Shown: one piece after another, positions 25,450-60,988 of the stretch
Layout of the letters: the number at the start of each line of letters is the position of its first letter
Position numbering within the stretch: position 1 is the first letter of the stretch
Assembly (NCBI RefSeq): GCF_900155685.1
Contig: NZ_LT732548.1
Span: 4,454,330 to 4,518,329 of the forward strand
Origin: Paenibacillus bouchesdurhonensis
Lineage (GTDB): Bacteria; Bacillota; Bacilli; Paenibacillales; Paenibacillaceae
Direction of reading: 5' to 3'
DNA length: 64,000 nucleotides
Made by a program: the position numbers and the translations under genes
Notes under the pieces: model-generated
Database searches by the model: none
Seen by the model: only the letters and a program-made list of their open reading frames with translations
What the model was told of the DNA's origin: nothing

Positions 25450-25891
25450 TTACCGACAGCTCCATCGTTAGATGCATGGGCCTGAAGCCATACTTCTTAT
25501 ACAGCAGACGCATCGGTAAATTTTCGACATGCACCTTACCGACAATGTGCTCTACCTGTTCCCTGCGGCAATAAGCTATTCCTTCTTCAAATAGCTCTTC
25601 CACATAACGGGTTCCTCGCAAGTCTGGAGCAATATAGAAGCTTTTAAAGTTGGCATACTTTTCCTTCGTAATCGAATTTTCACGTGGCGTGATCCACATC
25701 CAGCCGCCAATACTCTCATCTACCTCAAGGATAAGCATGCCTTTCCGTTCATTTTGGCTAGCCTTCTCAAGCTTTTTAATATGAAACTGCGGGTCAATTA
25801 CAGCATCGCGCCCAAATGAAATAACAGAGATTTCAATTTCAATTTGAGCCACCTGTACTATATCATGATGTTCCATCACCCGGATCGGCAT
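25433..25891 (-). CDS. GNAT-family N-acetyltransferase
   Basis: A 152-residue acetyltransferase. The acetyl-CoA binding stretch reads SFYIAPDLRGTRYVEELF (about residues 85-105) and a C-terminal LLYKKYGF motif completes the GNAT fold. In zwittermicin-type and related clusters N-acetylation of the product's free amine gives self-resistance, and the mature product predicted here would carry such an amine. A tailoring role on the polyamine or carrier-bound unit of this operon is equally possible. The ribosome site is weak. Confidence 0.8.
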   Translation of the reverse strand: MPIRVMEHHDIVQVAQIEIEISVISFGRDAVIDPQFHIKKLEKASQNERKGMLILEVDESIGGWMWITPRENSITKEKYANFKSFYIAPDLRGTRYVEELFEEGIAYCRREQVEHIVGKVHVENLPMRLLYKKYGFRPMHLTMELSVSESDD

Positions 25892-27335: not shown

Positions 27336-30300
27336 CTAATCCATTACAGAAACCTGAATAAATGGACTGAGCTGTTTTATCGTCCGATATTTAAACAAAT
27401 GCTGACTCTCCATAAGCAACCCCTGTTTCTCCATCTCAATTTCTACTTGGATTGCATAAAGAGAGTTGCCTCCCAAATGAAAGAAGTCATCATCTACTCC
27501 AATCTTCTTAACAGCTAGTATCCTCTCCCATATTTGCACCAATGCCTCTTCGATTTCGTTGTCAGGCGCGCAATATAAAGCTCTTGTGATCTGCCCGCCC
27601 GTTTCTAAAGGCAGCTGCAGAAGCCTGCTAGCAGCTGCATACCGCAATGGTTGCAGCTGACAGCGATGCAACTGCTTTTCCCAACCTGTTACAAGAGCTT
27701 CCCGTTCCAACTGATTTGCTTGTTGTTCCAATGCAGCTAACTCCGTCAACGTATCGTATACCGTATTTCTACCTCTCTCACTGTCTCTCTTTTCCTTCAT
27801 CGCTTCAGGATCAGCTTCACTTGATAAAGGTGCATTATAGATGCATGTCGTCCCTTTCAGCTTATCGGGGATATCCTCGACTTTTTGACGGAACAGCAGC
27901 GTCTCCCCTGGCTCATCTGTATGAAGCCATGAACCACTGATCAGAAAATCCAGCATAGGCACATTCCTGCCAGTCTTCATGTACGCAGCTTCAAGATAAT
28001 TGATTCCCTCCTCCAGGAAATAAGGCTTCAAAGCGCTAAGCACCGCTTGTTCAACTCCTCTGCCGAGCACCCGACAGCTCAACAGAAATGCATCCAAATA
28101 CAATGTATCCTTATTCCTTCTAGTAATCACCGCACCGGACAATCCATAACTGCCAAAGCGGTCAGCCGCCTCGACAGCCCAGCATATCGTGTCGGGCTGG
28201 TTCAATAAAGCATATAATTCGGCTTCCGTATAACGGGTAGCTTGTAGTGTAAACTGATTAATTCGCTGCGTAAGCTGAGCAATCCGTGGAAGCTGCTCCG
28301 CCCGAACCCGATTTACGCTAACGACCAGCTTCAACTCATTAAGAAAATGTTGCAGCGACGGTAAAGAAGCCTTTGCCTTTAAACGTTCTCGTTCCGTAAT
28401 ATATCTGCTTGTTCTTTGCTTGTCCTCCTCTGTTACCCGGAAACGATCCAGCGCCCATAGATGCTCCAAGAACGGACCCAATTCCCGTTCCTGAGGCAGC
28501 TGAAGCGTAAGCACCTCTGGACATCGGGCCTGTACCTCGGCACACTCCAGTTCGTTATCATCAATAAATACGAAGGTGTCGAGACCTACGCCTATTTCTT
28601 CAGCCAACTGCTGCAAATTATGAGATTTCGCTTGCCAATTTAGCCGCCAAGCCACAAAGTGCTCTTTGCTCAGCAGCATATCAGGATGGCTTTCAAACAC
28701 CTGCCACACATCCTGTTCGTTATTTTTACTCACGAGCACAAGGAGCATTCCCTCCTGTTGTTTGGACAATAGAAATTGCTGCAGCATGCGGCTGGATTCT
28801 TGGATCTGCACCCCATCACAACCATCCTCGCCACAAACGCCCTGCCACAAAGTATTATCGCAATCCACCGCAATCACTTTAAATGGATGCCCCTGCCATG
28901 CCAACAAATGCCGGGCAGCAAATGTACCCATTACTGCATTAAATTGCGGTGTAAACGGTAAATGGGCCGCCTGATCGCCTACCGCATCATAACGCTCGGT
29001 TACAGCATACATTCGATCCGCTTGTCTAAAATCAATAACGTGAATCGGATGAAGCTTCCCAAGCTTTTCAAGCTCCTCTTTCCATCGATCATTCAAGTAC
29101 TCCAGATAGCTGATCATTTCTGAAGAGAATGACGCTGGTGCCGTTACAGGCAGCACGCCTGCAAACAATGGCGTATCCCGACGGTTAGCAGCGGATATTG
29201 CCTCTATTAGTTCACTCAACACATGCTCCATCTTCACCCGCTGGTCTGCTTCCGATGATTCATCAGCCAGCAGCCAATCCTCAAACCGGACAAGCAGCAT
29301 TCCTGCTCCTTCGGTTGTAGAAAGCAGGCTATCTGGATCCAGAAGCTCCTGGAATACCTGATTGTACGGTGCAAATCGAACATCAATTCTTGTTCCGAAC
29401 TGTTTGCCCCACCAATCAAGGTAAGGCTGGATTGGATCAGCAGTAAAAGTTGCCGCGACCACGAGTTCTAGAGCCGGTTCAGGCACGATATTCTGTTGCT
29501 TTGCAGCCAATGCCTGATGCTCCTCTTCCGTTAATACTCTGATATCTCCCAGCGTGCGGTTTGGCTCGCTCAGCACCAAATCGATCAGCCTGATCAAATG
29601 ATCCATCAGCCCAACCATCGTATCCTCGATAAACAATGCCGTATTATACTGAAGGGCACAGAGTAAACCGCCATCGTCCGCATAGCCGATATCCAGCTTG
29701 AAATCAAGCTTGGAAATTCCTTTAGTAATTTCATAGTTCTCAAATGTGAGGCCTTCAGCCATCAGTACGGTGTCCTCATCAAATTCATTATGAAAGATCA
29801 TCATCGTATCAAACAGCGGGTTACGTCCACGTGTCAGTCTGGTAGTCAGCTTCTCCACCATTCGATCAAACGGATAATCCTGGTTCTCATAGGCACTCAT
29901 TATTGTCTCGTTCAAGGACAGCAATTGATCCAGAACCGTTTGCTGCGGCTCAAGACTAACTCGTATCGGTAGGAAATTGGTGAACATACCGATCAACGAC
30001 TCCACATCTGCATGACGCCGGCCCGCTACCAGGGAGCCGACAATCAAATTCTGCTGTCCTGTATACTTGTGCAGCACAATCGTATATAAATGAAATAACA
30101 GTACATTAATCGTGACATTCTGTGATCTAGCAACCTTGTCAAGACGCTCTGCAACCTCTTTAGAAATTCTTCGCTTATGCACTCGGCCTGCAAAGGATTG
30201 AAACTCCGGCCGCTCGAAATCCGTTGGCATATGAAGGAGAGGAAGCTCAGTGCGGAGTTGGTTCAGCCAGTATTCCTCCTGCTTCTGAAGCAAATTCCCT

Positions 30301-33300: not shown

Positions 33301-33887
33301 TGGCAGGCTAAATGCACAGCAACAAGCGAGGTGGAGCACGCTGTCTGTACAGTAAAGCTCGGTCCTTTTAAATTCAATTTATAGGACACCAATGTTGCTA
33401 AATAATCCCGTAGATTCAACATAGCTGTCTCAAGGGTAGCAGATTCCTCAGAACCCCCCAGACCTTTAAACGCTCGCATGAACCAGTGGGAGTTAAACGC
33501 AGCTCCCGTGTACAAGCCGATTGCTCCTTTATAAGTCTTCGGATCATAGCCAGCCTGCTCCAGAGCCTCCCACGAGCATTCATGAAGAAGCCTGAATTGG
33601 GGATCCATAACCTCCGCTTCCCGCGGAGTATAATCGAAGAATTCTGGATCAAACAGGTCAATATCCTCAAGTATCCCCTTTGCCTTAACATAATTAGGAT
33701 GACGGATGATCTCTGGATCAATGCCTTCTGCCAATAACTCTTCGTCCGTAAAAAAGGAAATACTCGCTTTGCCGCTGCGCAGATTATCCCAATATTCCTG
33801 CAGGTTTCTTGCGCCTGGAAACCTTCCTGACATGCCAATTATGGCGATCTCTGATCCGGTATATTCCATTTCCCTCTTTACGCTCAT
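27336..33887 (-). CDS. Hybrid PKS-NRPS: KS-AT-ACP-C-FkbH-PCP
   Basis: 2183 residues. KS with TACSTSL near 183; malonyl-type AT (GHSIGEY near 629, HAFH near 729); carrier GGHSL near 971; condensation-like domain near 1020-1450 whose catalytic motif reads MHNIVSDG, with Asn replacing the second His; a linker of the SGNH-like type that precedes large FkbH domains; FkbH domain with DCDNTLWQG near 1676 and SCRVLGRG near 1939; final carrier GGNSL near 2142. There is no KR, A or thioesterase. It is the last assembly-line gene, so this KS-AT-ACP should add the fourth ketide to leucine without reduction. The C-FkbH-PCP tail stands where a release domain would be expected. Start overlaps the previous stop by four bases. 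Confidence 0.92.
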   Translation of the reverse strand: MSVKREMEYTGSEIAIIGMSGRFPGARNLQEYWDNLRSGKASISFFTDEELLAEGIDPEIIRHPNYVKAKGILEDIDLFDPEFFDYTPREAEVMDPQFRLLHECSWEALEQAGYDPKTYKGAIGLYTGAAFNSHWFMRAFKGLGGSEESATLETAMLNLRDYLATLVSYKLNLKGPSFTVQTACSTSLVAVHLACQALLSGECSIALAGGVSIQLPRKNGYFYQEGMINSPDGHCRAFDEQAAGTVFGDGAGMVVLKTLEDALEDGDHVFAIIKGSAINNDGNRKVGYSAPSTTGQVSVIRAAHHVAEVEPESISYIEAHGTGTTLGDPIEIEALKTAFQTDQRQYCGIGSVKSNIGHLNNAAGVAGLIKAVLALVHKAMPPTLHYQSPNPKIDFVNSPFYVNNQLKAWTNDRYPLRAGVSSFGIGGTNAHVVLEEAPMTERIASDQSAELITISARSEAALDRMARRLSNYIRENPEVSLKDMAYTLQVGRASFPYRRSLVCTSTEEAAALLADPDAPEVYNHLAESDDRPIVFMFSGQGSQYVEMGRELYEKVPIFRDEVKRCLELLSDEAAKRVKQALYPPIEEQIDHNAINQTDVAQPVIFIVEYAIARMMLEWGFTPQAMIGHSIGEYVAACISGVFSLKDALSLVVVRGQLMQSQPSGAMLSVPLSEQELLPLLSEDLALAAVNAPSMCVVSGTHEAIDSLAAKLEAQGHDCRKLHTSHAFHSAMMDPILKKYEEEVGRLTLNRPTKPFISNVTGTWIRDEEATSPAYWARHLRCPVRFADGLATLLNEWDAALIELGGGNALTSFANMQNRENKVMVHLLRHPKQAVPDMAHLLTQVGRLWGAGVKPDWRGLYKEELRYRIPLPTYPFERGRFWLEDGGVRIIHHETRSASGNEAATRASRTGAAGEGFALVKKSPGAYTSRKAAGDKAAPRNPVEKTLVQIWQDMFGIEEIGINEDFFEIGGHSLKATSLIARIHKELHVELALSDIFAYPTIQELAQYISQLDQKKYLAIKPVEPKPYYRLSSAQKRTFLIHQQIGQMTTYNMPMALTVTGRVDADRFEQAYIKLIQRHENMRTSFHMINGEPMQQVHDSFEFKIARLEANEEDMQQVVRGFIQPFDLGQAPLIRAALVQLAPEKHVLLMDMHNIVSDGSSMNVFIKEFSDLYAGKELSPLRIQYKDYAEWQHDLLEGNLLQKQEEYWLNQLRTELPLLHMPTDFERPEFQSFAGRVHKRRISKEVAERLDKVARSQNVTINVLLFHLYTIVLHKYTGQQNLIVGSLVAGRRHADVESLIGMFTNFLPIRVSLEPQQTVLDQLLSLNETIMSAYENQDYPFDRMVEKLTTRLTRGRNPLFDTMMIFHNEFDEDTVLMAEGLTFENYEITKGISKLDFKLDIGYADDGGLLCALQYNTALFIEDTMVGLMDHLIRLIDLVLSEPNRTLGDIRVLTEEEHQALAAKQQNIVPEPALELVVAATFTADPIQPYLDWWGKQFGTRIDVRFAPYNQVFQELLDPDSLLSTTEGAGMLLVRFEDWLLADESSEADQRVKMEHVLSELIEAISAANRRDTPLFAGVLPVTAPASFSSEMISYLEYLNDRWKEELEKLGKLHPIHVIDFRQADRMYAVTERYDAVGDQAAHLPFTPQFNAVMGTFAARHLLAWQGHPFKVIAVDCDNTLWQGVCGEDGCDGVQIQESSRMLQQFLLSKQQEGMLLVLVSKNNEQDVWQVFESHPDMLLSKEHFVAWRLNWQAKSHNLQQLAEEIGVGLDTFVFIDDNELECAEVQARCPEVLTLQLPQERELGPFLEHLWALDRFRVTEEDKQRTSRYITERERLKAKASLPSLQHFLNELKLVVSVNRVRAEQLPRIAQLTQRINQFTLQATRYTEAELYALLNQPDTICWAVEAADRFGSYGLSGAVITRRNKDTLYLDAFLLSCRVLGRGVEQAVLSALKPYFLEEGINYLEAAYMKTGRNVPMLDFLISGSWLHTDEPGETLLFRQKVEDIPDKLKGTTCIYNAPLSSEADPEAMKEKRDSERGRNTVYDTLTELAALEQQANQLEREALVTGWEKQLHRCQLQPLRYAAASRLLQLPLETGGQITRALYCAPDNEIEEALVQIWERILAVKKIGVDDDFFHLGGNSLYAIQVEIEMEKQGLLMESQHLFKYRTIKQLSPFIQVSVMD

Positions 33888-36800
33888 TGCAAGACCTCCC
33901 CTTTGCGTCTTTTTTGCCTCTGCTCCTGCTGGCGTTTTTTCCCTTTGGCTACTGTATCGATCAACTGATGCTCCATCTCTGCCTCTTCCGCCTCAATTTC
34001 TTCGCTTTTGCCCAACCGCTGGGCAAGAGCATGAATCGTTGGATAAGTAAACATATCTACTACTGCAAGACTTTCATTTAGAGCTTCGTTTAATTTTCCA
34101 GTCACTTGAATCATATCTAGGGAGCTAGCACCCAAATCAAAGAAATTATCATGAATTCCTACTTGATCAATTCGAAAGAACTGCTTCCACACCTCGGCAA
34201 TCGTCTTCTCGATTTGATTTCGAGGCGCAACATAGGCACTCGTCAAATCCGGCCGTTCAAAAGTCGCACCTGCCCGATTGTTCTCCTGCTTCCTGCCGGC
34301 ATGGTAAATCCATTGATCAATTCTCGCTTGGAGATTTCCTGTAGAAACGATGATTTGATGACTGTCACAGGGGGCGTATACATAGCTGAAAAGCTTCGGT
34401 GCCTCGGCAGGCGTAATAGCCAAATCAACCAATGTCTCGCCGATCGTTGAACGGTGTTCCTCCCAAAATTCCCAAGCATCCCAGTTAATGCACAGCCACT
34501 TTGTATCGCTCGTCTGATTCTGCCTGCGGGCAAAGGCATCCATGTACAGGTTCGCCGCTGAATAGGCGCTGAACCCAAGTCCGCCAAGCACACTCGCAAT
34601 CGATGAGAACAAGACGCAGATATCCGGCTTTTTATCGTCTATGAACCGCGACAATATTTGCAGTCCCTTCACCTTGGCATTAAACTGCTCATCCAGCTGT
34701 GATTCGCCAATATTCTCAATCGCCCGGAATGATTCGCTTCCCGGCAAGCCTGCCGCCTGCACTACACCGTTTAAACCACCATATTGGGAATCAATAAACT
34801 CAAACACCGCTGCCATATCTGCCTCATCAGATAAATCGGCCTGTACATAAGTGACCTCAGCGCCGAACTGCTCCAGCCGCTGAACGCTTCTGATTTTTCG
34901 AACCAGCGGATGCTCCTCCCCATATTCACCCAGATAATGCTCATATTCTTCACGGGCAGGGAATGAAGAACGCCCTGTCAGAATTAGTCTGGCCTTAAAA
35001 TGCTGAGCTAGATATTGAGCCGTCAGCATACCGATCCCGCCAAGTCCTCCTGTAATCAAGTACACGCCACCTTCGCAAAACGGCATTCGCTCGCTGCTGA
35101 TCGACTGATGAAGAGCCATCGGCTTGTAGTCTTGTACCCAACGATATGAACCGCGGTAAGCAATCTGGCGATCTTCCGCCGGTGCCGCAAGCTCAGCAAG
35201 TAATTGGCTAACCATTCGTTTTCTGCGGTTTTCATTATTCGGCAGATCAATATCAATGCTCACACATGTCATACTGCTGTATTCCTGCTGAATCACCATA
35301 CATGGGCCGAGCAGCGTGATTTTGCCTGGAGCAAGCCGCTCTTGCCCTGTAACCTCCTGCATATTCGTGGATACAACAGCTAGGCGAACCTCTTGGATCT
35401 CCTTTTTCTTATTCAGTGCTTGTGCCAAATAAATCAAGCTGTAATAGCCTAACTTCTGCTGTTCCCAATCGGCTTTAGACTCATTAGGCAAAATGCCATC
35501 CGCTTCAGCTTTTTCAGGTGTAACATTCCACAAATGGACTACCTGATCTGGCACAAAGCTTTGCTGCCCCAGCTCGTCTAAAAGCTGTGTATAATGCTCA
35601 GAAACCTCAGGGACAATCGTAAACACATCATTCTCCAGCTTCTTAAATCCACTGCCTGCCTTAACCACAACAATACGATGGCCTTCTTCTTTTGCCCGCT
35701 GCGCCAATGCCTCGGCAATCAAACAATTATCTGCAAAAATCAACATATGAAGTGGCTTCGTAATCGAAGAATGATTGAGCATGGCTCGTTTCCAGCCAGG
35801 ATAATAGAACCACTCCTCCATATTCGGGTTCTTACCATTCGGCCGCGCCGCAGTGAGATGTTCCTTCTCAAGAGAAGAGGACGGGGTCTCAAGCCAGAAG
35901 CGTTGCCGCTCCATCGGATAGGTGGGCAATTCAACACGTCTGCGACGCTCGTGTTGATAATAGCTAGTCCAATCCATATGCGCACCAGCCGTCCACAGCT
36001 TTCCAAGCCTTTGCAGAAGGTGCGCTGAATCAGCAGTCGCTTCTTGGGGATGTCTCAGTACATTGACAACTACTCGCTCTCTGGAAGCAGCAATATGTTT
36101 CCGTACAAAGGTGCTTAGCGCATTTCCCGGCCCTACCTCCACAAATACCGTTCTAGGCTGGCTTAATAATTCATCCAGCCCATCCGCAAAGCGTACCGTT
36201 GACCGCAGGTGCTGAACCCAGTAATCTGCATCCACGGCTTGTTCGGCGGTAATCCATGTCCCTGTTACATTCGAAATGAAAGGGATCATTGGCTTCTCTA
36301 ACGAAATAGCACGTACACGGCTTGCAAATTCGTCCAGCATGGGCTCCATCATATAAGAATGGAATGCATGCGATGTATGGAGCAATCGATTGGCGATGCC
36401 CTTACTCTCCAGGAGACGGGCAAATGCCTCGACCTTCGGAATTTCTCCTGACACAACACATAAGGCTGAGCTGTTGACTGCGGCTAAATCCAATCCCTCT
36501 GGCAGCGATGCAAGCAGTTCATCCTCGGGCATAGCTACGCTGAGCATCGAACCGGGAGCCATGGCTCGCATCAGCCGTCCTCGAAGTGCAACAAGCTCCA
36601 AAGCCTCCTCCAGCTTAAATACCCCCGCTAGACAAGCAGCCGTATATTCTCCAATGCTGTGTCCCAGCATAGCTTCGGGAGTCACCCCCCAGTTCATGAG
36701 CAATCTGGACAGTGCATACTCCATAATGAAGAGTACAGGCTGAGCGATATCCGTTCTCATCAAAAGCTCTTCCCGCTCTGCCATCAACGACGGATTATCC

Positions 36801-39800: not shown

Positions 39801-41536
39801 TGCCTTCTGAGATCATCCCCTCCCCTGGAAATAATGAACTCACAGCACCGATCCAGCTCCTGCCGAAAGATGGGCTCCGCCTGATATAAGCCCAGCCCCA
39901 TATTCACGTATTCCGAGCCCTGACCCGGGAATAGAAAAGCAACTTTGGCCTGCTCCTGTGTCCTTTCGCCAGTCCCTCCCTTGTTATCTGTCGCCGCCTG
40001 CGCCAGCAGTTGCAAAGCGTCCTCGTTGTCACTGCAAACCAAAGCTCGCCGATATTGAAATTTTTTTCGTCCCGTTTGCAGTGTATAAGCTACATCCGCC
40101 AAATCGATCTCACGGTGGTGCCGTAAATATTCAGCGAGATTATGCGCGGCCTGCTTCAATCCAGCCTCCGTAGCTGCCGACAGTACCATCAGCTTGGCGG
40201 AACGGCTCGCTGACCCCTTGCGTTGCACGGGGGCTTCCTCCAATACAACATGCGCATTCGTTCCCCCGATGCCAAAAGAACTGACTCCAGCACGAAGAGA
40301 TCCATCAGCTCTATCCCAAGAGGTGAGTTTGGTATTGACAACGAAAGGAGAATTGGCGAAATCAATTTTAGGATTGGGCCGTTGAAAGTGCAGTGTAGGC
40401 GGAATCTGTTTATGTTTTAGCATAAGCACCGTCTTGATAAAGCCGGCCACTCCTGCTGCAGCATCCAAATGACCAATGTTTGATTTAATGGAACCGATGC
40501 GACAGCTGCCTTGAGAGCTGCCCTCAAAAGCAAGCTGAAGTGCTTCCACCTCAATCGGATCGCCTAATGATGTTCCCGTGCCGTGAGCCTCAATATAACC
40601 GATACTCTCGGGGGGCACCTCCGCCATCTGATGCGCACTGCGGACAACCTCTACCTGGCCCACTGTGCTTGGCGCTGTGTAGCCAACTTTGCGATTGCCG
40701 TCATTATTAATGGCAGAGCCCTTCACAATGGCATGGATTGTATCCCCGTCCGCCAATGCATCGCTAAGCCGTTTAAGCACAACGATGCCAATGCCATCGC
40801 CAAACAAGGTGCCGTTGGCTTCAGCATCAAATGGGCGGCAGTGTCCATCAGGGGATTGAATCATCCCTTCCTGGTACAGGTATCCTGTTGTTCGAGGAAG
40901 ATTAATCGACACTCCGCCAGCTAAAGCCATATCGCATTCTCCGCCCAGCAATCCTTGACATGCAAGGTGAATGGCAACAAGTGAGGTCGAGCAAGCGGTT
41001 TGGACGCTTACGCTCGGGCCTTTTAAATTTAATTTATATGAAATACGTGTCGTAAAAGAAGGATTATTTAGTTGCAGGATTTGAAAATGATCACTGGAAT
41101 GTCTCGCCGCCATAGCTTGACCGGCTACCCAGTACGTATTCGAAGAGGCCCCTGCGTAAACGCCGACCAACTTTTCCTCAGAGTCAGGGCTGTAACCAGC
41201 ATTTTCAAGGGCTTGCCAGGCACATTCATGAAATAATCGAACCTGCGGATCCAGAAGCTCCGCTTCCCGCGGTGTATAGTCGAAAAATGATTCATCAAAT
41301 GATTCTACATCCTCCAGCATGGCTTTAGCCTTCACATATTGAGGATGCTTGAGCATTTCCAGATCAACTCCGCCAGCCTGCAGCTCCTCATCTGTAAAAA
41401 AAGTAATCGATTCCTTCCCGTCCCGCAGATTTTCCCAAAATTCCTCAATATTTTCAGCTCCAGGGAAGCGTCCGGCCATCCCGACAACGGCAATTTCCAA
41501 CCCGTTACCTTCGTACATTTTATTATTCATACTCAT
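33884..41536 (-). CDS. Bimodular PKS: KS-AT(degenerate)-ACP-KS-AT-KR-ACP
   Basis: 2550 residues. First module: KS with TACSTSL near 182; an AT-like region in which GHSxG is GYYAG (near 647) and the small subdomain with the HAFH motif is replaced by a short polar linker; ACP serine in GASSL near 933; no KR. Second module: KS (cysteine near 1178), intact malonyl AT (GHSIGEY near 1627, HAFH near 1722), KR with GGLGGIG near 2165 and SAYSAANLYMD, ACP GASSL near 2472. These are read as ketide extensions 2 (unreduced) and 3 (reduced). The first module needs malonyl from another AT. A basic tail (KGKKRQQEQRQKRRKGE) may be a docking element. Confidence 0.93.
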   Translation of the reverse strand: MSMNNKMYEGNGLEIAVVGMAGRFPGAENIEEFWENLRDGKESITFFTDEELQAGGVDLEMLKHPQYVKAKAMLEDVESFDESFFDYTPREAELLDPQVRLFHECAWQALENAGYSPDSEEKLVGVYAGASSNTYWVAGQAMAARHSSDHFQILQLNNPSFTTRISYKLNLKGPSVSVQTACSTSLVAIHLACQGLLGGECDMALAGGVSINLPRTTGYLYQEGMIQSPDGHCRPFDAEANGTLFGDGIGIVVLKRLSDALADGDTIHAIVKGSAINNDGNRKVGYTAPSTVGQVEVVRSAHQMAEVPPESIGYIEAHGTGTSLGDPIEVEALQLAFEGSSQGSCRIGSIKSNIGHLDAAAGVAGFIKTVLMLKHKQIPPTLHFQRPNPKIDFANSPFVVNTKLTSWDRADGSLRAGVSSFGIGGTNAHVVLEEAPVQRKGSASRSAKLMVLSAATEAGLKQAAHNLAEYLRHHREIDLADVAYTLQTGRKKFQYRRALVCSDNEDALQLLAQAATDNKGGTGERTQEQAKVAFLFPGQGSEYVNMGLGLYQAEPIFRQELDRCCEFIISRGGDDLRRQLFRSDGNENSGTAASHGEETNAEVSVEFDGNDAKPVRSESGQLALFAFEYALAKLLMFWGIQPQAMLGYYAGEYVSAVLAGVLKLEDALELLMLRSRLLNAQTNGAGPGNSQLEEKPGSAGQSFEEGSSAFTDSDLQIFSNKVNQISLSAPSIPYISTITGAWITAEEATSPAYWVHQLQARVRPVDHAAGLLKGRQVIVSIGLGNDLDGSIAGQSDGEAQNGHEFIPLVRQPEEQTADDTFLLQRLGQMWAAGVKIDWSGYYADERRCRIPLPTYPFAKRRFAVDLPVGGLINRASSARREVQSNSSGNIGATSDKLRMLTVSAIEQIISDTVKEHFGFTELGVNDNLFEIGASSLDVSQIADKLTGALDQEIPVVSLYTYPSARVLARHLREATTVDSKKPSEIKNVQASCPELNQAASESIRTGDYHGQEIAVIGMAARFPGADNLEEFWRNLSGGVESITFFTEEELIAEGIDPQLIAHPSYVKARGALNGYDQFDAAFFGYSAREAELMDPQLRLFHESAWEALEAAGYNPDTYSGSIGVYAGATPNLEWVSRFAAGLGGAERFSAMLLNDREFFSTQLSYKLNLRGPSISMQTACSTSLVNIVMASQALLAGSCDIALAGGSTVTVPHKSGYMYEEGMIQSPDGHCRAFDEKAAGTVFGDGVGVVILKRLRNAIEDGDVIHAVIKGFGLNNDGTRKVGFTAPSTKGQTDVIRAAQHMAGVDLESITYVEAHGTGTPMGDPIEIEALKEAFQTAKTGFCRIGSVKSNVGHLNSAAGAAGFIKTVLALKERQIPPTLHFEHANSKINFADTPFVVNTELTPWESEHYPLRSGVSSFGIGGTNAHVILEEAPLIEASDEGKTDKLLLLSARTPTALQAVKSRLADYLMERPDANLADVAYTLQVGRKAFEWRTAFLCKDVQEAVNILTSSDSGVIHEEHTGLESRSVVFMFPGQGSQYVNMGRGLYQEEPVFRKELDHCMELAQTFMEFDLRKVLFEDNPSLMAEREELLMRTDIAQPVLFIMEYALSRLLMNWGVTPEAMLGHSIGEYTAACLAGVFKLEEALELVALRGRLMRAMAPGSMLSVAMPEDELLASLPEGLDLAAVNSSALCVVSGEIPKVEAFARLLESKGIANRLLHTSHAFHSYMMEPMLDEFASRVRAISLEKPMIPFISNVTGTWITAEQAVDADYWVQHLRSTVRFADGLDELLSQPRTVFVEVGPGNALSTFVRKHIAASRERVVVNVLRHPQEATADSAHLLQRLGKLWTAGAHMDWTSYYQHERRRRVELPTYPMERQRFWLETPSSSLEKEHLTAARPNGKNPNMEEWFYYPGWKRAMLNHSSITKPLHMLIFADNCLIAEALAQRAKEEGHRIVVVKAGSGFKKLENDVFTIVPEVSEHYTQLLDELGQQSFVPDQVVHLWNVTPEKAEADGILPNESKADWEQQKLGYYSLIYLAQALNKKKEIQEVRLAVVSTNMQEVTGQERLAPGKITLLGPCMVIQQEYSSMTCVSIDIDLPNNENRRKRMVSQLLAELAAPAEDRQIAYRGSYRWVQDYKPMALHQSISSERMPFCEGGVYLITGGLGGIGMLTAQYLAQHFKARLILTGRSSFPAREEYEHYLGEYGEEHPLVRKIRSVQRLEQFGAEVTYVQADLSDEADMAAVFEFIDSQYGGLNGVVQAAGLPGSESFRAIENIGESQLDEQFNAKVKGLQILSRFIDDKKPDICVLFSSIASVLGGLGFSAYSAANLYMDAFARRQNQTSDTKWLCINWDAWEFWEEHRSTIGETLVDLAITPAEAPKLFSYVYAPCDSHQIIVSTGNLQARIDQWIYHAGRKQENNRAGATFERPDLTSAYVAPRNQIEKTIAEVWKQFFRIDQVGIHDNFFDLGASSLDMIQVTGKLNEALNESLAVVDMFTYPTIHALAQRLGKSEEIEAEEAEMEHQLIDTVAKGKKRQQEQRQKRRKGEVLQ

Positions 41537-41620
41537 TTTGTCACCGCCTTCACGTTTCTCCTACTCCAGATACGGTTAGTTTGCTTCGCCTCTTCCCATC
41601 AGATCGATCATCCTGCAGCT

Positions 41621-44600
41621 TTACTTCCGATCACGCCTGTTTAGTCGCTGCTTTAACCTGCTTTTTCCCTCACTGATTTGCTCTGAACGATCAACCGTTT
41701 GCTCCGGAGGTTCTGCTCCAGTAACAGTTCTCCTGATTAGCTCAGCTAATGAATGAATCGTTGAATGACTGAACATGTCCACGACCGATACTTCCATATG
41801 CAGTGCTTTCTTTAACTTCGTATTCATTTGAATCATATCCAGTGAGGTTGCGCCCAGTTCAAAGAAATTGTCGTGCAGTCCCAGCTCATCAGCACCAAGA
41901 TATTCTCCCCACAATCGGGAAATCAACTGCTCCAGCTCATCTCCAGCAGGAATCTGAACCCGAACCTCCCTTTCATGAGAGGCTTGAGAACCGACCTTAT
42001 TTCCTTCTTTCATCAAGGAATGTAACGAAGCTTCCCGCGCCTTCTCCATTCGGATAGATAAATCCGTTGTAGACACCAATACTTGCGGCAGGCGACTGCT
42101 TAACGCTTGGCGAAAAACAGCAACACCTTCCTCCGGCAGCAAGTGTGCACTGGCGCCCGGGTTTATTTGCTCAGCTGATGCCTGTATTGCCGATACTTGC
42201 ATTTGCTCCCCGCTTGCGCTTCCAACTTGCACCTTGGCCTCAGCTTCATGAATAGCTGGTGGTTGATCCCGGGTTATTGCAGTCTCCTGCTCCGCAGCAG
42301 CCATTCCAACTTCCTTCCATCCATCCCAATTTATTGAAGTCACATGCGCAGCAATACTCCCCTGCTTGCGATAAGCATAGCTATCGAGATATGCATTAGC
42401 AGCACAATACCCTGCTTGACCTATCGCACCAAGCACACTAACCAATGAAGAGCACAAAACCAGGAAATCAAGCTGCCTTCCTCCCGTAAGTGCTTGTCCC
42501 AGCACTCTTTCCAGCACCTGCGTGCCCTTGACCTTGGCAGCCATTGCCCGCTGCTCAAGCTCCGGTGTACGCCGTTGGATCAACGCTCCATCCGCCGTTC
42601 CCGCTGCATGAATGACGCCGTGTATAGTTCCAAAACGAACCATAGCCTGATTTACAACCTGTTCCATCTGCTGCTGGTCGGATACGTCTGCACTGCACAC
42701 GAGCACCTCAGCGCCATATTCTTCAAGCGCGGCCAGCTTGCTCATCTTGGATGCTAACTCATGGTCACCGTTATTCATCTTTGCGGGGTTCCGCCAATCC
42801 GGCTCATTCGGCACCGAACGGCCGGTCAATACCAGCTTTGCCTTTACCGTTTTGGCCAAATACTCTGCTAAGGTAAGACCAATTCCGCCCAAGCCTCCGG
42901 TTATCAAATAAACTCCCTGTTCTCGAAATCTCATATTTGCAGAAGCATTGACTTCAGGCACCGGAATAAACTTCTGTACCCAGCGATAATTGCCGCGATA
43001 AGCAACGACCATATCATTGGACGCTGAGACGAATTCTCTATGCAAGCTGTCCAGTAACGCTTGCCGGCGATTCCTGGCGGCAGATGCTTTATCTGACGGA
43101 ATATCAATATCAATGCTGTGGCACTTTACATTGGGGTATTCCTGCGGAATCACAAGGCATGCGCCAAGCACGGACGCCTGCTCCGGTCTTAGCTCCTCTT
43201 CCCCTGTTACCTCCTGCATCGTCGCCGTTGCCACATAAAGCTTCAGTTCCTCTTGAATTCCACGCCGTCCTATAGCCTTAGCAAGAGCAAGCAAACTGTA
43301 ATAGCCACACTCAAACGTACGCTGACTTCGGATCAATTCCAGATCGCCTGTACTGCTTAGTTCGGCTGTATCCCCCGATTCAACAAGCTCGCTTGCCTCT
43401 ATCTCCCCTGGCGTTAACCAGGCATGAATAATGGAACCAAGCTGCTGACCGGAAGCTGATAGCTCCTGCAGCAAACGGTCATAATGCTCCGCATCTCCCG
43501 GCGCAATCCGGTAAGTATCGGCATCCAGCCGGGCAAACGAAGCGGAGGGATGAACTACGGTAACTTTCGCACCCTCCTGTCTTAATCGTTCCACGAGTTG
43601 TACTCCAAGCCCCTCCTCAGGAATAAAGGCAACCCAGTGCTGCTTAGAGGATGGTCTGGCAGGCTCCTGCTCCAATATCGAACGTTCCCAGGCCGGCGTA
43701 TACAGCCACTCTCCAACCGTCGCTTTTTTTACAGCCGATTTATTGCGCTGCGCATCTGATACGGAAAGAGACTTGCCTTGAAATCCCTGCTTTAAAATGT
43801 CGATTTCACGTGGCGGATCTACCCAATATTGCCGTCGTTCAAAAGGATAAGTTGGCAATGCTGTCCGCAGACGGCGTTCATTAGCATAGTACGATCTCCA
43901 GTCAATACGAGCTCCGGCTAGCCATAACCGCCCTAGCTGCTGCAGTAAATACTCGCTGTCATTAATCTGATTTTTAGGATGACGAACTAGACTTACAACT
44001 TGATGACCTGCTCCTTTGCCAGGATGACGCCGCACAAATGCACTAAGGGCATTGCCGGGACCTACTTCAACAAACACTGCCTTGTCATCCTTCAAGAGCT
44101 CCCCAAGCCCATCGGCAAATCGTACCGTTCCCCGCAAATGCCTCGACCAGTATTCGGCCGATCCTGCCTCTTCACTGGAAATCCAAGTGCCAGTAACATT
44201 CGAAATATACGGAATTGTCGGCTTATGCAAATCAATCGAGTGAAACTGCTGGATGAATGGCTCCATCACAGGCTCCATCATGGAAGAATGAAATGCATGC
44301 GAGGTATGCAGCCTCGAAATAGCTTCACCCTGCTCCATCAGCAATTTTTCCAATTTCTCGATGTCCTCAATTGTTCCGGATACCACGCACAACGCCGTCC
44401 CATTGACCGCAGCTACGGACAAGCGCTCATGCAGCAGCGGAGCCAGATCCTGCTCAGACAGCCGCACACTGAGCATCGCGCCTGCGGGAGCGCTGTGCAT
44501 CAGCTGCCCCCTTGCGATGACCAGCCCCAAAGCATCCTCAAGCGTCATCACCCCGGAGAGGCAAGCCGCCACATATTCGCCTACACTATGCCCAATCATC

Positions 44601-46483
44601 GCGCTTGGCTGAAGTCCCCAGCGCATTAATTGCCGAGCCAGCGCATACGAGAAAATAAATAACGCCGGCTGCGTTATATCCGTCTGCTCCAAACGCTTCC
44701 CCGCATCAGGCGCCTGTTCTCCGGAAGGATATAAAATATGTTTCAAATCCACATTCATTTTACTTTGAGCAAGCTCCAGGCACTGATCCACCTTCTCGCG
44801 AAAATATGATTCCTGCTCGTATAAATCCAACCCCATATTCACGTACTGCGCGCCCTGTCCTGGGAACATAAACACCAGCCTCGGCTGAGTCGTATCGCAT
44901 ACCTCCGTGATTACGCGGTCGGCAGGCCGACTTGCCAGCTGGCTGCACGCCTCCTTTGATGTGGAAGCCACAAGCATGCGCCGATGACGAAAAGAACGCC
45001 GTCCGGCCTGGAGTGTAAATGCGACATCCGCAAGCGGTGCATTCGGATGCGTCCGCAGATATTCCAAGAAACGTGCCGTCGCCAGCTCTAGGCCAGCTTC
45101 TGTCCGAGCCGACAGCAGCAACAGCTTCGCTTCCCTGCCTTCATCGCCACTCTTAGCTGCCGGCGCTTCCTCAAGCACCACATGCACATTGGTACCACCT
45201 ATGCCAAAGGAGCTAACCCCTGCCCGTAGTGGATAATTCTCGTTCTGCCAAGTCGTCAGCTCGGTGTTCACCACAAAGGGACTGTTCGCAAAATCGATTT
45301 TCGGATTAGGCTGTTCAAAATGCAGACTTGGCGGCAGCTTTTTATGCTGCAGAGATAGCACTGTCTTCATAAATGCAGCAACACCAGCAGCACTATTCAA
45401 ATGTCCGATATTGGTCTTCACCGAGCCTATTTGGCAATAGCCCTTCTTCTCTGTCTGAAAAGCAAGCTTCAGCGCTTCTATTTCCACAGGATCCCCTAAG
45501 GTTGTTCCTGTGCCATGGGCTTCAATATAGCTAATGCTCTCCGGCGAGACACGCGCCATTCGCTGGGCTGCGCGAATCACCTCGGCCTGCCCTTCTATGC
45601 TTGGAGCCGAATAAGCCATCTTGCGCGTTCCGTCATTATTTGCGGCCGAGCCTTTAACCACTGCATATATGCAATCGCCATCCGCAAGTGCCTGCTTCAA
45701 CGTCTTTAATACAACAACTCCCGCGCCTTCCCCGCCAATCGTGCCCTTGGCCTTGGCATCAAATGCCCGGCAGTGACCGTCCGGAGAACTAATCATTCCC
45801 TCCTCATGCAGATAGCCTTCCGTTCGCGGCACCGTCACTGTAGCACCGCCAGCCAAAGCGATCTTGCACTCACCCGTTAACAGCGATCTGCAAGCCAAAT
45901 GTATAGCCAGCAGCGAAGTAGAGCATGCGGAATCAACGTTAACGCTGGGCCCCTTTAAATTAAGCTTATGAGCGATCCGCGTACTCAAAAAATCCTTATC
46001 CGATAAAGCCAATGCCGCAAATTGCTCAGCCATACTGTCGCTTCGGGAGAGCATAGCCACCATTTGCCAATAAATGCTCGCTGAAGCCCCTGCAAACAGG
46101 CCGATCGAACCGGACGTTTGCTCCGGATCATATCCGGCATGCTCTAATGCTTCCCATGCAACCTCATGAAATAGACGAATCTGAGGATCTATCACCTCGG
46201 CTTCGCGCGGCGTATACTCAAAAAAGTCGGAATCAAACCATTCAGCATCCGGGACGAGCGCCTTTGCCCTTATATAACGCGGATTCTGTATCAGTTCTGG
46301 AGCTATTCCCGCCGAAGCGAGTTCTTCATCCGAGAAAAAATGTACCGATTCCTTGCCGCTTTTCAAGTTCTCCCAATATTCATCGATGTTGCGGGCTTCC
46401 GGAAACCTTCCCGCCATCCCTATTACGGCGATTTCCAGCCCGCTATACGCTTGTGCTGCTGGTACATTTCGGCTGTCAGGCAT
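41621..46483 (-). CDS. PKS module: KS-AT-KR-ACP
   Basis: 1620 residues. KS with SACSTSL near 186; AT of malonyl type (GHSVGEY near 631, HAFH near 731); KR with ITGGLGGIG near 1193 and the catalytic tyrosine in AGYCAANAYLD near 1361; ACP serine in GATSLDM near 1546. It takes leucyl from the NRPS module encoded just before and makes a beta-hydroxy chain, the hydroxyl later needed for lactone closure in an isocoumarin. The start overlaps the NRPS stop by eight bases with GGAGGG upstream. A basic C-terminal tail suggests a docking helix. An 84-base gap follows before the next PKS gene. Confidence 0.93.
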   Translation of the reverse strand: MPDSRNVPAAQAYSGLEIAVIGMAGRFPEARNIDEYWENLKSGKESVHFFSDEELASAGIAPELIQNPRYIRAKALVPDAEWFDSDFFEYTPREAEVIDPQIRLFHEVAWEALEHAGYDPEQTSGSIGLFAGASASIYWQMVAMLSRSDSMAEQFAALALSDKDFLSTRIAHKLNLKGPSVNVDSACSTSLLAIHLACRSLLTGECKIALAGGATVTVPRTEGYLHEEGMISSPDGHCRAFDAKAKGTIGGEGAGVVVLKTLKQALADGDCIYAVVKGSAANNDGTRKMAYSAPSIEGQAEVIRAAQRMARVSPESISYIEAHGTGTTLGDPVEIEALKLAFQTEKKGYCQIGSVKTNIGHLNSAAGVAAFMKTVLSLQHKKLPPSLHFEQPNPKIDFANSPFVVNTELTTWQNENYPLRAGVSSFGIGGTNVHVVLEEAPAAKSGDEGREAKLLLLSARTEAGLELATARFLEYLRTHPNAPLADVAFTLQAGRRSFRHRRMLVASTSKEACSQLASRPADRVITEVCDTTQPRLVFMFPGQGAQYVNMGLDLYEQESYFREKVDQCLELAQSKMNVDLKHILYPSGEQAPDAGKRLEQTDITQPALFIFSYALARQLMRWGLQPSAMIGHSVGEYVAACLSGVMTLEDALGLVIARGQLMHSAPAGAMLSVRLSEQDLAPLLHERLSVAAVNGTALCVVSGTIEDIEKLEKLLMEQGEAISRLHTSHAFHSSMMEPVMEPFIQQFHSIDLHKPTIPYISNVTGTWISSEEAGSAEYWSRHLRGTVRFADGLGELLKDDKAVFVEVGPGNALSAFVRRHPGKGAGHQVVSLVRHPKNQINDSEYLLQQLGRLWLAGARIDWRSYYANERRLRTALPTYPFERRQYWVDPPREIDILKQGFQGKSLSVSDAQRNKSAVKKATVGEWLYTPAWERSILEQEPARPSSKQHWVAFIPEEGLGVQLVERLRQEGAKVTVVHPSASFARLDADTYRIAPGDAEHYDRLLQELSASGQQLGSIIHAWLTPGEIEASELVESGDTAELSSTGDLELIRSQRTFECGYYSLLALAKAIGRRGIQEELKLYVATATMQEVTGEEELRPEQASVLGACLVIPQEYPNVKCHSIDIDIPSDKASAARNRRQALLDSLHREFVSASNDMVVAYRGNYRWVQKFIPVPEVNASANMRFREQGVYLITGGLGGIGLTLAEYLAKTVKAKLVLTGRSVPNEPDWRNPAKMNNGDHELASKMSKLAALEEYGAEVLVCSADVSDQQQMEQVVNQAMVRFGTIHGVIHAAGTADGALIQRRTPELEQRAMAAKVKGTQVLERVLGQALTGGRQLDFLVLCSSLVSVLGAIGQAGYCAANAYLDSYAYRKQGSIAAHVTSINWDGWKEVGMAAAEQETAITRDQPPAIHEAEAKVQVGSASGEQMQVSAIQASAEQINPGASAHLLPEEGVAVFRQALSSRLPQVLVSTTDLSIRMEKAREASLHSLMKEGNKVGSQASHEREVRVQIPAGDELEQLISRLWGEYLGADELGLHDNFFELGATSLDMIQMNTKLKKALHMEVSVVDMFSHSTIHSLAELIRRTVTGAEPPEQTVDRSEQISEGKSRLKQRLNRRDRK

Positions 46484-49112
46484 CCGTATTTCCCTCCAGT
46501 ATGAGCATGGTCTGCTCCATCATTTCAAAGCCTTCATCCATTTGCTCGTGATTTGCCATATCAACAGGTTGCTGCTCATCCCCGCGGTCGAGGCGCTGCA
46601 GATACCCACCGAGCGCTGCTATCGTTGTATACTGAAACAGCGAAGGCACCGGAATATCATAGCCAAACGTTTCGTTCAACCTGTTGACCACCTGAACAAG
46701 CTGAAATGAATTCCCCCCCAGATCAAAGAAGGTATCATGTACACTTAATCTGGCTTCACCAATTCCCAATATCTCCGCCCAAATCCGCACCAGTGTACCC
46801 TCGATTTCACCACGTGGCGCAACGTATTCCTTCCCAGTATGAACATTTTCCCTTGGATCAGGTAAGCCTCTCGTATCCAGCTTGCCATTAGCCGTTACAG
46901 GAAACTGCTCCAAATAAACAAAATAAGCTGGAATCATATAACTCGGCAATTTCGCAAGCAAGCTGGCTCGCAGTTCAGAAGCAGACACACCGGGCATCCC
47001 GGTATAATACGCACAAAGCATATTTTGACCAGCCTCATCCTCGCGAACAAGAACGATGGCTTCATGGACACCGTCATACTGTCGCAAATGCATTTCTATC
47101 TCGCCTGGCTCGATACGGTATCCTCGCACCTTCACCTGGTCATCCTGCCGTCCCCAATATTCGAGCATGCCATTCGGAAGCCAGCGTCCCTGATCGCCTG
47201 TGCGATACAGCCGTTCATTCGGCAGGAATGGATGCTGTACAAACTTGGCCTCCGTCAGCTCCGGTCGGCCCAGATAACCCCTGGCGAGCCCTGCACCGGC
47301 TACACAAATCTCACCAGGCACACCTGGAGGCAGCAGTTGAAGCTGCTGATCCAATATATAAACCTGAAGATTGTCAATAGGCCGTCCAATTGGAATTACC
47401 CCGTCGGCTTCAGTCACTTCAACGAAAGTGGTGACAACTGTATTCTCGGTTGGCCCATAATTGTTAAAGAGACGATAGCGTCCCGGTTTAACTCGCTTCA
47501 GACGTTCCCCTCCCGTGAGCAGTATCCGCAGCGCGCTTTCCTCCGGCTGTTCCAATTCCATGAATTGCTCACACATCATCGTGGGCAGAAAGGCAATCGT
47601 AATCCCCTGCTCAGCAAAATATAATCCCAGTTTCCGCGCATCCAGGCGAATTTCAGGCGGAACGATATGAATCGAAGCCCCTGCAAGCAGGTGGGGAAAC
47701 ACTTCCCACACCGACGCATCAAAGCCAAATCCGGCATATTTAATGCCTCGATCAGCTGCTGTCACCTCAAAAGCATGATTATGCCAATAGGACAAATTCG
47801 TCAGAGAACGATGCTCAATCATGACACCTTTGGGCTGTCCGGTGGAGCCGGAGGTATAGATAACGTACGCCAAATCAGCCGCCGAGCTATTTCCCCCCAA
47901 ATTATCTACCGACTCACTGAAGCCCTGGGGATCATCAAGAAACAATCCCGGATGGCTGCCTAATTTATCTGAAAGCTGCTGTTGTGTAAGTACAACCTTT
48001 ACACCGCTGTCCTCCAAAATATATTGAATCCGATCATGCGGATAATCCGGATCTAGCGGCAAAAACGCCCCGCCAGCCTTCATCACCCCCAGCATTCCGA
48101 CGATCATTTCAGCAGAGGGAGTTAGCAATAGACCGACAATGTCCCCTGCTTCAATACCTTCTTTACATAGCACCCTCGCTACCTGATTCGCTTTTTCATT
48201 CAGCTCCCGATAAGTCACTGCGCCTTCTGAACTGACCACGGCCAGCGCTTCAGGACTCCGCTCTGCCTGCTCCTCAAACAACTGGTGTATAGTTTGTTCC
48301 CACGGATAATCTACTGTATCTCCGGCGAATGATTGCAGCAGTTGTTCCCTCTCTCCCGGCAGCAAAATTTCTAATCGCGTTAATGGCACATCCGGATTTG
48401 CCAGAGCCTCCTGCAGGAGCTGGATATAACGAGAAATGATCCTTGTCATCGTCTTACGCTGATACAATTCGGCATTATATTGAAGCTCACCCTCAATACC
48501 ATTAGCATCAGTTCTAAAGAGGTAGAATAAGGTTTTCCACCTTATGTTTTTTAAAAAACGCTCTTCCTGAATATTGGACAGGAGCAGCGCCACCTCAAAT
48601 AGGGGGTGAGCCAGTTGATCATCCAACGGCATCGCAAACTGCCGGGCGATCAGCTCCATCGGGTAGCTCTGATGCTCTACCGCTGCTACAACCGTCTCCT
48701 GCATGTTTAAAAGGCATTGCCGGAATGTGATCCCGGCCTCCATCCTTGCCCTCAAAGGAAGCACTGTGTTAATAAAGTCCGCTTCCTCCCGCTGCCGGTA
48801 GATAGGAGTTCCTACCACAACATCGCTGCGATTTGTCATACGGCTTAGTAAAGCAGCAAGTCCAGCAGCCAATACAACATGAAGCTTGGAGTCTGAATTT
48901 CCGCTTACCTTTACAAGGCGCTCCGACAACTCCTTTGGGAAGCGCAGAGCAGCTTTCTCCACGGTAACTCCGGTTGCATGAGGATAATCAGAAAGGAAGC
49001 CCCCCTTCTCAAAATCACCAGATAAGGCTGTTAACCAAAAATCCCGTTCTTTGCTTTTTTGCGATGCAGCTATCGCCAATCTGTCCATATGATATTCTGA
49101 CCCTGCTGTCAT
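46476..49112 (-). CDS. NRPS module: partial C-A(Leu)-PCP
   Basis: 878 residues from the ATG at 49112, chosen for its GGGAGG site; an upstream frame reaching 49211 would overlap the previous gene. The N-terminal 265 residues resemble only the C-terminal lobe of a condensation domain and lack HHxxxDG. The adenylation domain has YTSGSTGQPKG near 415; the specificity residues read D-A-W-F-L-G-N-V-V-K, the textbook leucine code. The carrier serine is in GGNSFQL near 799. The preceding protein ends in a complete C domain, which presumably forms the bond to this leucine. Confidence 0.92.
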   Translation of the reverse strand: MTAGSEYHMDRLAIAASQKSKERDFWLTALSGDFEKGGFLSDYPHATGVTVEKAALRFPKELSERLVKVSGNSDSKLHVVLAAGLAALLSRMTNRSDVVVGTPIYRQREEADFINTVLPLRARMEAGITFRQCLLNMQETVVAAVEHQSYPMELIARQFAMPLDDQLAHPLFEVALLLSNIQEERFLKNIRWKTLFYLFRTDANGIEGELQYNAELYQRKTMTRIISRYIQLLQEALANPDVPLTRLEILLPGEREQLLQSFAGDTVDYPWEQTIHQLFEEQAERSPEALAVVSSEGAVTYRELNEKANQVARVLCKEGIEAGDIVGLLLTPSAEMIVGMLGVMKAGGAFLPLDPDYPHDRIQYILEDSGVKVVLTQQQLSDKLGSHPGLFLDDPQGFSESVDNLGGNSSAADLAYVIYTSGSTGQPKGVMIEHRSLTNLSYWHNHAFEVTAADRGIKYAGFGFDASVWEVFPHLLAGASIHIVPPEIRLDARKLGLYFAEQGITIAFLPTMMCEQFMELEQPEESALRILLTGGERLKRVKPGRYRLFNNYGPTENTVVTTFVEVTEADGVIPIGRPIDNLQVYILDQQLQLLPPGVPGEICVAGAGLARGYLGRPELTEAKFVQHPFLPNERLYRTGDQGRWLPNGMLEYWGRQDDQVKVRGYRIEPGEIEMHLRQYDGVHEAIVLVREDEAGQNMLCAYYTGMPGVSASELRASLLAKLPSYMIPAYFVYLEQFPVTANGKLDTRGLPDPRENVHTGKEYVAPRGEIEGTLVRIWAEILGIGEARLSVHDTFFDLGGNSFQLVQVVNRLNETFGYDIPVPSLFQYTTIAALGGYLQRLDRGDEQQPVDMANHEQMDEGFEMMEQTMLILEGNTDA

Positions 49113-60975: not shown

Positions 60976-60988
60976 GAAATGCCCTCCC

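Follow-up and report, generated by a model that had tools for sequence, protein, structure and literature searches.

Which product does the large biosynthetic locus of Paenibacillus bouchesdurhonensis at positions 4,454,330 to 4,518,329 of contig NZ_LT732548.1 make? This stretch of 64,000 nucleotides, referred to as the window, carries on its minus strand what is in all likelihood most of a complete 18-gene cluster of the amicoumacin type, combining nonribosomal peptide synthetase (NRPS) and polyketide synthase (PKS) modules. Its product very probably belongs to the amicoumacin-type class of leucine-linked 8-hydroxy-3,4-dihydroisocoumarins. In the direction of transcription, the window encodes a peptidase, a type II thioesterase, a 3-hydroxyacyl-CoA dehydrogenase (HCDH), an FkbH protein, an acyl carrier protein (ACP), an acyl-CoA dehydrogenase, the megasynthases NP1, NP2, PK3, PK4, and PK5, a BpsA-like protein, a GNAT acyltransferase, a second FkbH (FkbH2), and a second ACP (ACP2). 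Just past the right edge (L090:200-4702) lies an AmiA-like starter NRPS of 1500 amino acids (aa), in which condensation (C), Asn-specific adenylation (A), peptidyl carrier protein (PCP), and C/E-type domains follow each other. With its two condensation-type domains, this protein would provide both the acyl cap and the D-configuration of Asn. A gene for a 336-aa protein beyond the same edge gave only a weak match to BtrH_N, below the cut-off.

The initial annotation had read a Leu module with the code DAWFLGNVVK, followed by four PKS extensions with and without ketoreductase (KR) in the order KR, none, KR, none. Both readings held. The A domain of NP2 gives exactly this code (the last K is assumed, not read, in every A-domain code reported here), and within the extensions after Leu, KR hits together with the motif TGGxGxxG are confined to PK3 and the latter half of PK4. 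The KR pattern was the same in the seven other clusters of an eight-cluster motif comparison. While the count of four extensions stood, the end of the chain did not, as PK5 runs on for about 1170 aa past its ACP with a C-FkbH-PCP tail. The hydroxymalonyl genes mentioned earlier are present, namely those for HCDH, FkbH, ACP, and the acyl-CoA dehydrogenase, and the motif GYSFG in the acyltransferase (AT) of NP1, shared with the two ami-type clusters introduced below, is taken as hydroxymalonyl type. The peptidase, described at the outset as ClbP-like, matched ClbP structures at 2.5e-52 (top match Protein flp, 1.6e-60) and has the SxxK motif as well as three C-terminal hydrophobic segments; it is taken to be the remover of an N-acyl-D-Asn prodrug cap.

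The acyl-CoA dehydrogenase was searched against an even, class-wide sample of 398 genomes, of which 268 matched at E 1e-50, and 15 loci were returned. Besides the window genome (G000) and G126, these comprised 13 further loci, six of which were read with their surroundings; two of the six, in G324 and G634, proved to be of the ami type. The comparison clusters are either of the Paenibacillus type (G126, G288, G092, G055, G047, and Paenibacillus profundus) or of the ami type (G324 and G634). The full cluster, including the AmiA-like and BtrH_N-type proteins, is found in G000, G126, G092, G055, G047, and P. profundus YoMME, and in G288 except for HCDH. In G288, HCDH is missing between the thioesterase and the first FkbH gene, and a relative with 45% identity lies past the cluster end on the opposite strand (L136-L139). 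The proteins of G324 measure 1489, 513, 326, 244, 285, 357, 89, 390, 3029, 893, 1501, 2416, 2136, 335, and 468 aa, and passages of PMC12366304 give 1489, 513, 326, 236, 285, 350, 90, 380, 3029, 889, 1500, 2410, 2136, 335, and 468 aa for AmiA-O of the Bacillus safensis strain CB729. Eight of these 15 sizes are equal and the others differ by no more than 10 aa; the 335-aa protein of G324 is a phosphotransferase and the 468-aa protein an alkaline phosphatase. Since protein sizes, gene order, and families agree with CB729, we infer that G324 is a Bacillus amicoumacin cluster.

A gene-by-gene comparison with ami, which the initial annotation had suggested as a check, gave counterparts of 12 genes (amiA, B, and D-M) in the same order in G324, with protein identities of 33-64% (39% for the peptidase, 62% for HCDH). 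AmiC has a relative in G634, and no BLAST relative of it was found in the Paenibacillus-type stretches. The relationship of the ketosynthase (KS) domains, proposed as a further check, points in the same direction. When 60 KS domains (five from each of eight clusters, four from P. profundus, four from P. apiarius, and 12 from G588, G349, G106, and G626) were placed in a tree, each of the five positions of the window cluster grouped with its positional counterparts in G324 and G634. The supports of these groups are 1.0, 0.969, 0.975, 0.986, and 0.581, the last and weak one being that of the first KS after Leu. The KSs of G588 are sister to two positional groups and not inside them; in an earlier, incomplete tree, for which a motif search had missed some copies, a G588 KS fell inside the weak first post-Leu group. 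The groups were read from the tree itself, as the monophyly test returned 'not' for M3, M5, M6, and M7 since the L013/L014 copies were labelled otherwise.

Table 1. Features of the amicoumacin-type locus in the window (positions of the window).
Feature	Position	Strand	Remarks
Serine peptidase, AmiB/XcnG/ClbP-like	62578..63999, past window end	-	523 aa in total; Pfam Beta-lactamase 2e-57
Type II thioesterase, AmiD-like	61840..62577	-	Pfam Thioesterase; conserved in cluster
HCDH, 3-hydroxyacyl-CoA dehydrogenase family, AmiE-like	60989..61885	-	Putative hydroxymalonyl-ACP pathway
FkbH glyceryltransferase/phosphatase, AmiF-like	59911..61005	-	Putative hydroxymalonyl-ACP pathway; TIGR01686 6e-82
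Stand-alone acyl carrier protein, AmiG-like	59654..59905	-	
Acyl-CoA dehydrogenase family, AmiH-like	58480..59649	-	Putative hydroxymalonyl-ACP pathway
NP1, AmiI-like	49144..58425	-	C-A-PCP-KS-AT-KR-ACP-C
Module 2 A domain	55546..56982	-	Reads DAFLVGAVIK (hydrophobic type); G324 and G634 have an Asn code
NP2, AmiJ-like	46476..49112	-	C-terminal half of C domain, A (Leu, DAWFLGNVVK), PCP
PK3, AmiK-like	41621..46483	-	KS-AT-KR-ACP; first post-Leu extension
PK4, AmiL-like	33884..41536	-	KS-(degenerate AT)-ACP-KS-AT-KR-ACP; second and third extensions
Degenerate AT of PK4	38957..39937	-	Second post-Leu extension
PK5, AmiM-like	27336..33887	-	KS-AT-ACP (fourth extension, without KR), then C*-FkbH-PCP
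Terminal C-like domain C*	29508..30806	-	HHxxxDG replaced by HNIVSDG
FkbH domain fused in PK5	27918..29450	-	DCDNT and SCR motifs present
Terminal PCP of PK5	27378..27575	-	GGNSL
BpsA-like protein (branched-polyamine synthase family)	25928..27118	-	Cassette gene 1; PF01861 1.7e-42
GNAT acyltransferase	25433..25891	-	
FkbH2, second stand-alone FkbH	24409..25449	-	TIGR01686 1.6e-62
ACP2, second stand-alone ACP	24156..24404	-	Conserved with cluster
Contractile-tail (phage-tail) block between ACP2 and amidohydrolase	13429-23729		Terminator, sheath, tape measure, LysM, YqbQ-like, baseplate J, Gp48, fibre
Amidohydrolase, N,N-dimethylformamidase / N-acyl-beta-phenylalanine acylase family	10474..12753	-	Eighteenth gene; PF20254

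The window cluster and amicoumacin synthesis part at module 2. The starter A domain has the Asn-type code DLTKIGEVGK in all eight clusters, and the same code recurs in module 2 of G324 and G634. The 11 Paenibacillus-type clusters instead show DAFLVGAVIK (seven clusters), DAFLIGAVIK (three, including P. profundus), or DAFLYGATVK (G288) at this position. The identity between NP1 of G000 and its G324 counterpart drops to 25-28% at residues 600-800, with 39% in the preceding and 56% in the following part; a replaced specificity subdomain would fit this profile. We take DAFLVGAVIK to denote a hydrophobic residue, without a single named amino acid. Xenocoumacin has Arg at the module-2 position and is probably not the product. 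Because the module-2 code lacks an Asn reading, the product is, judged from the code, not amicoumacin A either; of the amicoumacin/xenocoumacin-type product predicted initially, the compound class is supported and amicoumacin A itself is not. Atom bookkeeping with Asn in module 2 gives C20H29N3O7 (m/z 424.208), and amicoumacin A is reported at m/z 424. With Leu or Ile the result is C22H34N2O6 (m/z 423.249), with Val m/z 409.233, and with Phe m/z 457.233. The expected free product would thus be an amicoumacin analogue lacking the carboxamide side chain, for example with m/z 423.249 or 409.233. The locus would thereby represent an amicoumacin-type line with altered module-2 specificity.

The first AT of PK4 is degenerate. 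In G000, the Pfam model is covered from position 2 to 127 of 319 only and no active-site motifs were found; the motifs are lost in G126 as well, and the remnant in G324 scores 22 bits, below the cut-off. In the other 10 of 13 clusters (G288, G092, G055, G047, G634, L013, L014, L015, L018, and L019) they are present. The ratio of nonsynonymous to synonymous substitution rates (dN/dS) in the degenerate region is 0.39 between G000 and G126, compared to 0.10 and 0.11 in two pairs with an intact AT and to 0.07-0.22 for the other intact ATs. The loss is probably tolerated, because the AmiL proteins of CB729 and G324 are almost equally long (2410 versus 2416 aa; CB729 as given in passages of PMC12366304) and CB729 is a reported amicoumacin producer. 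The module may be charged by a neighbouring AT of the assembly line or by FabD. A second large PKS cluster, probably of the trans-AT type, was observed in the window genome (G000:C7, 2.90-2.99 Mb, 15 KS hits, separate AT hits at its ends). A contribution of this second cluster to the degenerate module need not be invoked, as G126 and G324 each show just one AT-family protein outside the amicoumacin-type cluster (312 or 316 aa, presumably FabD).

What follows the ACP of PK5 turned out to be a common property of the group. The C*-FkbH-PCP tail is present in all eight clusters, including G324, so that it is not unique to the window cluster, and in five of five further named genomes. In these 13 clusters, C* invariably has HN instead of the HH of the canonical HHxxxDG, and the FkbH motifs DCD(N/H)T and SCR as well as the carrier motif GG(N/S/T)SL are kept. 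When G000 is compared with G126, the dN/dS values for C*, FkbH, and PCP lie at 0.09-0.14, and three pairs together span 0.035-0.17 (FkbH 0.10-0.17), while the FkbH-PCP linker reaches 0.15-0.38 in the three pairs. A vestigial tail is unlikely, as the values of its three domains resemble those of other domains and not the 0.39 of the degenerate AT. By these ratios the tail is under purifying selection and appears as a working end module, the role of which is unexplained.

We also asked how widely the tail occurs. With the C*-FkbH segment as query (E 1e-120), seven of the 398 class genomes matched; both domains were covered in G000, G126, G324, and G634, all with amicoumacin-type clusters, and three matches covered one domain only. 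Among 299 genomes of the phylum, two matched (G000 and G324). From 72,556 plasmid records, a single match with at least 80% query coverage was obtained, in Niallia taxi, where the C domain has HH and the surrounding genes differ. This small cluster on a megaplasmid (L198:13008-24713) encodes thioesterase-like, adenylating-enzyme-like, and AT-like proteins as well as a protein of 2338 aa with C(HH)-FkbH-PCP at its end; it is possibly a maker of an acyl-glycerate ester. A plasmid search with NP2 gave matches below 60% identity throughout; the best among the matches listed reached about 37-41%, and the annotated ones were ordinary NRPSs. The published legend of the ami pathway figure lists no FkbH domain, and in the literature searched, no paper joining FkbH domain, NRPS, and amicoumacin was found. 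Our comparison thus brings to notice a conserved terminal module that is absent from that legend.

The Paenibacillus-type clusters share a further addition. A cassette of the genes for the BpsA-like protein (Bps), GNAT, FkbH2, and ACP2 follows PK5 in G000, G126, G288, G092, G055, G047, and P. profundus, and PK5 and Bps adjoin in four other named genomes. An assignment of these genes as unrelated neighbours was rejected, since they accompany the cluster in the six genomes compared and in P. profundus; their dN/dS is 0.05-0.17 between G000 and G126. The BpsA-like protein matched structures of a predicted methyltransferase (7.7e-24) and of N4-bis(aminopropyl)spermidine synthase (1.3e-22), and for GNAT a solved structural relative was not found at E 0.001. 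Bps matches occur in 37 of 296 genomes of the order. When 20 of them were read with short flanks, six belonged to an amicoumacin-type cluster, nine had GNAT and FkbH beside Bps, one had a GNAT piece only, and four had neither. The cassette stands in the same four-gene order in nine of 16 genomes read over 11-20 kb without hits to the window NRPS/PKS. In seven of these nine stand-alone cassettes (L116-L123, L129), the upstream reading frame encodes 660-691 aa; the one that was typed, in L116, is of the MutS_V type, and its neighbours there include a CAAX protease and an EF-G-binding (FusB-like) protein.

Directly after ACP2, a gene for a protein of 767-848 aa is found in G288, G092, G055, G047, and P. 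profundus, 62-71% identical to the amidohydrolase of the window. The latter matched N,N-dimethylformamidase (1.8e-142) and N-acetyl-beta-phenylalanine acylase (1e-111) over its full length. In G000 and G126 the two genes are separated by the phage-tail block, the sheath protein of which is 98.6% identical between both genomes. Because G126 was the only one of the clusters compared in which relatives of four block proteins were found, the block would be an insertion in the G000/G126 lineage. No hit to the AmiN kinase was obtained in the seven Paenibacillus-type stretches, a counterpart of the AmiN of G324 being present in G634 only. An AmiO-like alkaline phosphatase (38-40% identity to G324) lies beside the cluster, beyond the eighteenth gene, only in G288 (L136) and P. 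profundus (L197), so that the Paenibacillus forms are not uniform. AmiN and AmiO have been described as an off/on switch, and AmiS of Xenorhabdus bovienii as an N-acetyltransferase that inactivates amicoumacin. By analogy to both, acylation of the free amine by GNAT and its deacylation by the amidohydrolase may constitute a self-protection switch, with Bps outside its scope.

The presence of the cluster in P. profundus may link it to a known compound. In strain YoMME, NZ_JAJNBZ010000001.1 carries it at 296.0-341.2 kb, from the BtrH_N-type gene to ACP2, and the eighteenth gene adjoins. Passages of the literature describe an isocoumarin antibiotic and a glyceryl heptapeptide from strain SI 79. 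A 2025 study of strain M4.5, in the passages concerned, states that antiSMASH gave no isocoumarin cluster of a known type and names as PKS-NRPS candidates region 1.1 (81.1 kb, zwittermicin A, low similarity) and region 28.1 (58.3 kb). The amicoumacin cluster of CB729 likewise bears the antiSMASH label zwittermicin A, in an 80.95-kb region (passages of PMC12366304). Label and size suggest that region 1.1 of M4.5 is the amicoumacin-type cluster described here. These would then be candidate genes for the P. profundus isocoumarin antibiotic, missed by antiSMASH in M4.5.

Taken together, the domain order suggests the following route. An N-acyl-D-Asn would cap the chain, and a hydrophobic amino acid extended by hydroxymalonate would give a 4-amino-2,3-dihydroxy acid in amide linkage to Leu. 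Leu and four malonates would then undergo aldol closure of C8a on C4a, dehydration at C6, and lactonisation on the C3 oxygen, resulting in an 8-hydroxy-3,4-dihydroisocoumarin, and the peptidase would cut the cap after export. For the tail, we prefer glycerate-assisted release, in which the acyl chain would meet glyceryl-S-PCP at C*-FkbH-PCP before lactonisation, and GNAT and the amidohydrolase might protect the producer by acylating and deacylating the free amine. A more general and tentative proposal, which we hold as doubtful, is that the tail of Gram-positive ami-type lines uses PCP-bound glyceryl to release or cyclise the polyketide, while in Paenibacillus the cassette and the amidohydrolase form a switch replacing the kinase and phosphatase of Bacillus. 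Isocoumarins would in that case arise through an overlooked glycerate-dependent step, and the amine might even be acylated with glycerate.

Several observations weigh against the assignment to the amicoumacin type. G324 was identified by the sizes and families of its proteins and by gene order, and the lineage of the window carries one degenerate AT. DAWFLGNVVK stands at the Leu position in all six Paenibacillus-type clusters read, but G324 and G634 have DAQDLGAVQK, which is no textbook Leu code; as amicoumacin has Leu where G324 reads this code, the code reading alone is not decisive. The isocoumarin antibiotic comes from strain SI 79, whereas the cluster was seen in YoMME. Finally, the tail suggests a glyceryl step, yet our bookkeeping accounts for all atoms of amicoumacin A without glycerate. 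In a different view of the locus, the dihydroisocoumarin would be just a breakdown product, and tail and cassette would make the actual product, either a glycerate ester or a further glyceryl/aminopropyl conjugate. The motifs kept in 13 of 13 tails, purifying selection in three pairs, and the second FkbH/ACP pair with GNAT in six Paenibacillus-type clusters and P. profundus would agree with such a product. We nevertheless consider it unlikely, as the amicoumacin-type G324 has the same tail and amicoumacin A is without glycerate, none being named in the literature passages; moreover, C* has Asn in place of the catalytic His, in contrast to the HH of the Niallia C-FkbH protein.

Decay of the cluster, such that the degenerate PK4 AT leaves the strain without any product, appears quite improbable. 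The AT motifs are indeed lost in G000 and G126 and the dN/dS of the region is raised, but it is below 1 even for this remnant, and all other domains and genes compared between both genomes give 0.03-0.25. If the AT loss predates the G000/G126 split, as the shared truncation suggests, these low values mean that the line stayed under selection. In addition, the G324 line hardly has the first PK4 AT, and CB729 with its near-equal AmiL length is reported to make amicoumacins. We assign a very low probability to a product of another, related class that has no isocoumarin, be it similar to zwittermicin or made by some other kind of hydroxymalonate NRPS-PKS. Hydroxymalonyl genes are common to other clusters, such as that of G588 (L165-L167), another hydroxymalonate NRPS-PKS with a 4055-aa protein that has an FkbH domain about 1000 aa past a canonical C motif, and the zwittermicin A label of CB729 shows that labels overlap in this group. 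However, the KSs group by position with G324 and not within G588, G349, G106, and G626, an argument qualified by the sister position of the G588 KSs, and module count and KR pattern are identical to those of G324.

The amicoumacin-type assignment is best appreciated next to the Bacillus amiA-O clusters (B. subtilis 1779, B. inaquosorum KCTC 13429, and B. safensis CB729), compared here via G324. Gene order (A, B, D-M) and module order are the same, as are the Asn-type starter code, the KR pattern, the hydroxymalonyl genes, the ClbP-type peptidase, the half C domain before the Leu-position A domain, and the C*-FkbH-PCP tail. Unlike G324, the window cluster has DAFLVGAVIK instead of an Asn code in module 2 and a canonical Leu code, and it adds Bps-GNAT-FkbH2-ACP2 and the amidohydrolase. 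PM-94128 and Y-05460M-A are amicoumacin-class compounds with a hydrophobic amino-dihydroxy acid and in this respect resemble the product predicted for the window line. Passages of the literature name both only as members of the isocoumarin class or in cited titles. The clusters of xenocoumacin and of the X. bovienii amicoumacins have homologous genes according to a published table, to which the comparison is confined here. In X. bovienii, AmiL-M is a single protein of 3419 aa, 1237 aa shorter than AmiL (2514 aa) and AmiM (2142 aa) of B. subtilis BSXE-1601 together. As this deficit approximates the tail length, we infer from size alone that the X. bovienii protein is without the tail.

Glycerol-derived units in other assembly lines offer a further comparison. 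In the vioprolide and cystomanamide lines, passages of a review state, an FkbH domain replaces the A domain and loads glycerate on a carrier protein, and a gladiofungin chain is described as ending in a glycerol-derived unit introduced by another enzyme. The C-FkbH-T arrangement of vioprolide, as described in these passages, lies in module 2 near the start of the line, and its C domain makes an ester, whereas the module of the window cluster is terminal and its C* domain bears the HN motif.

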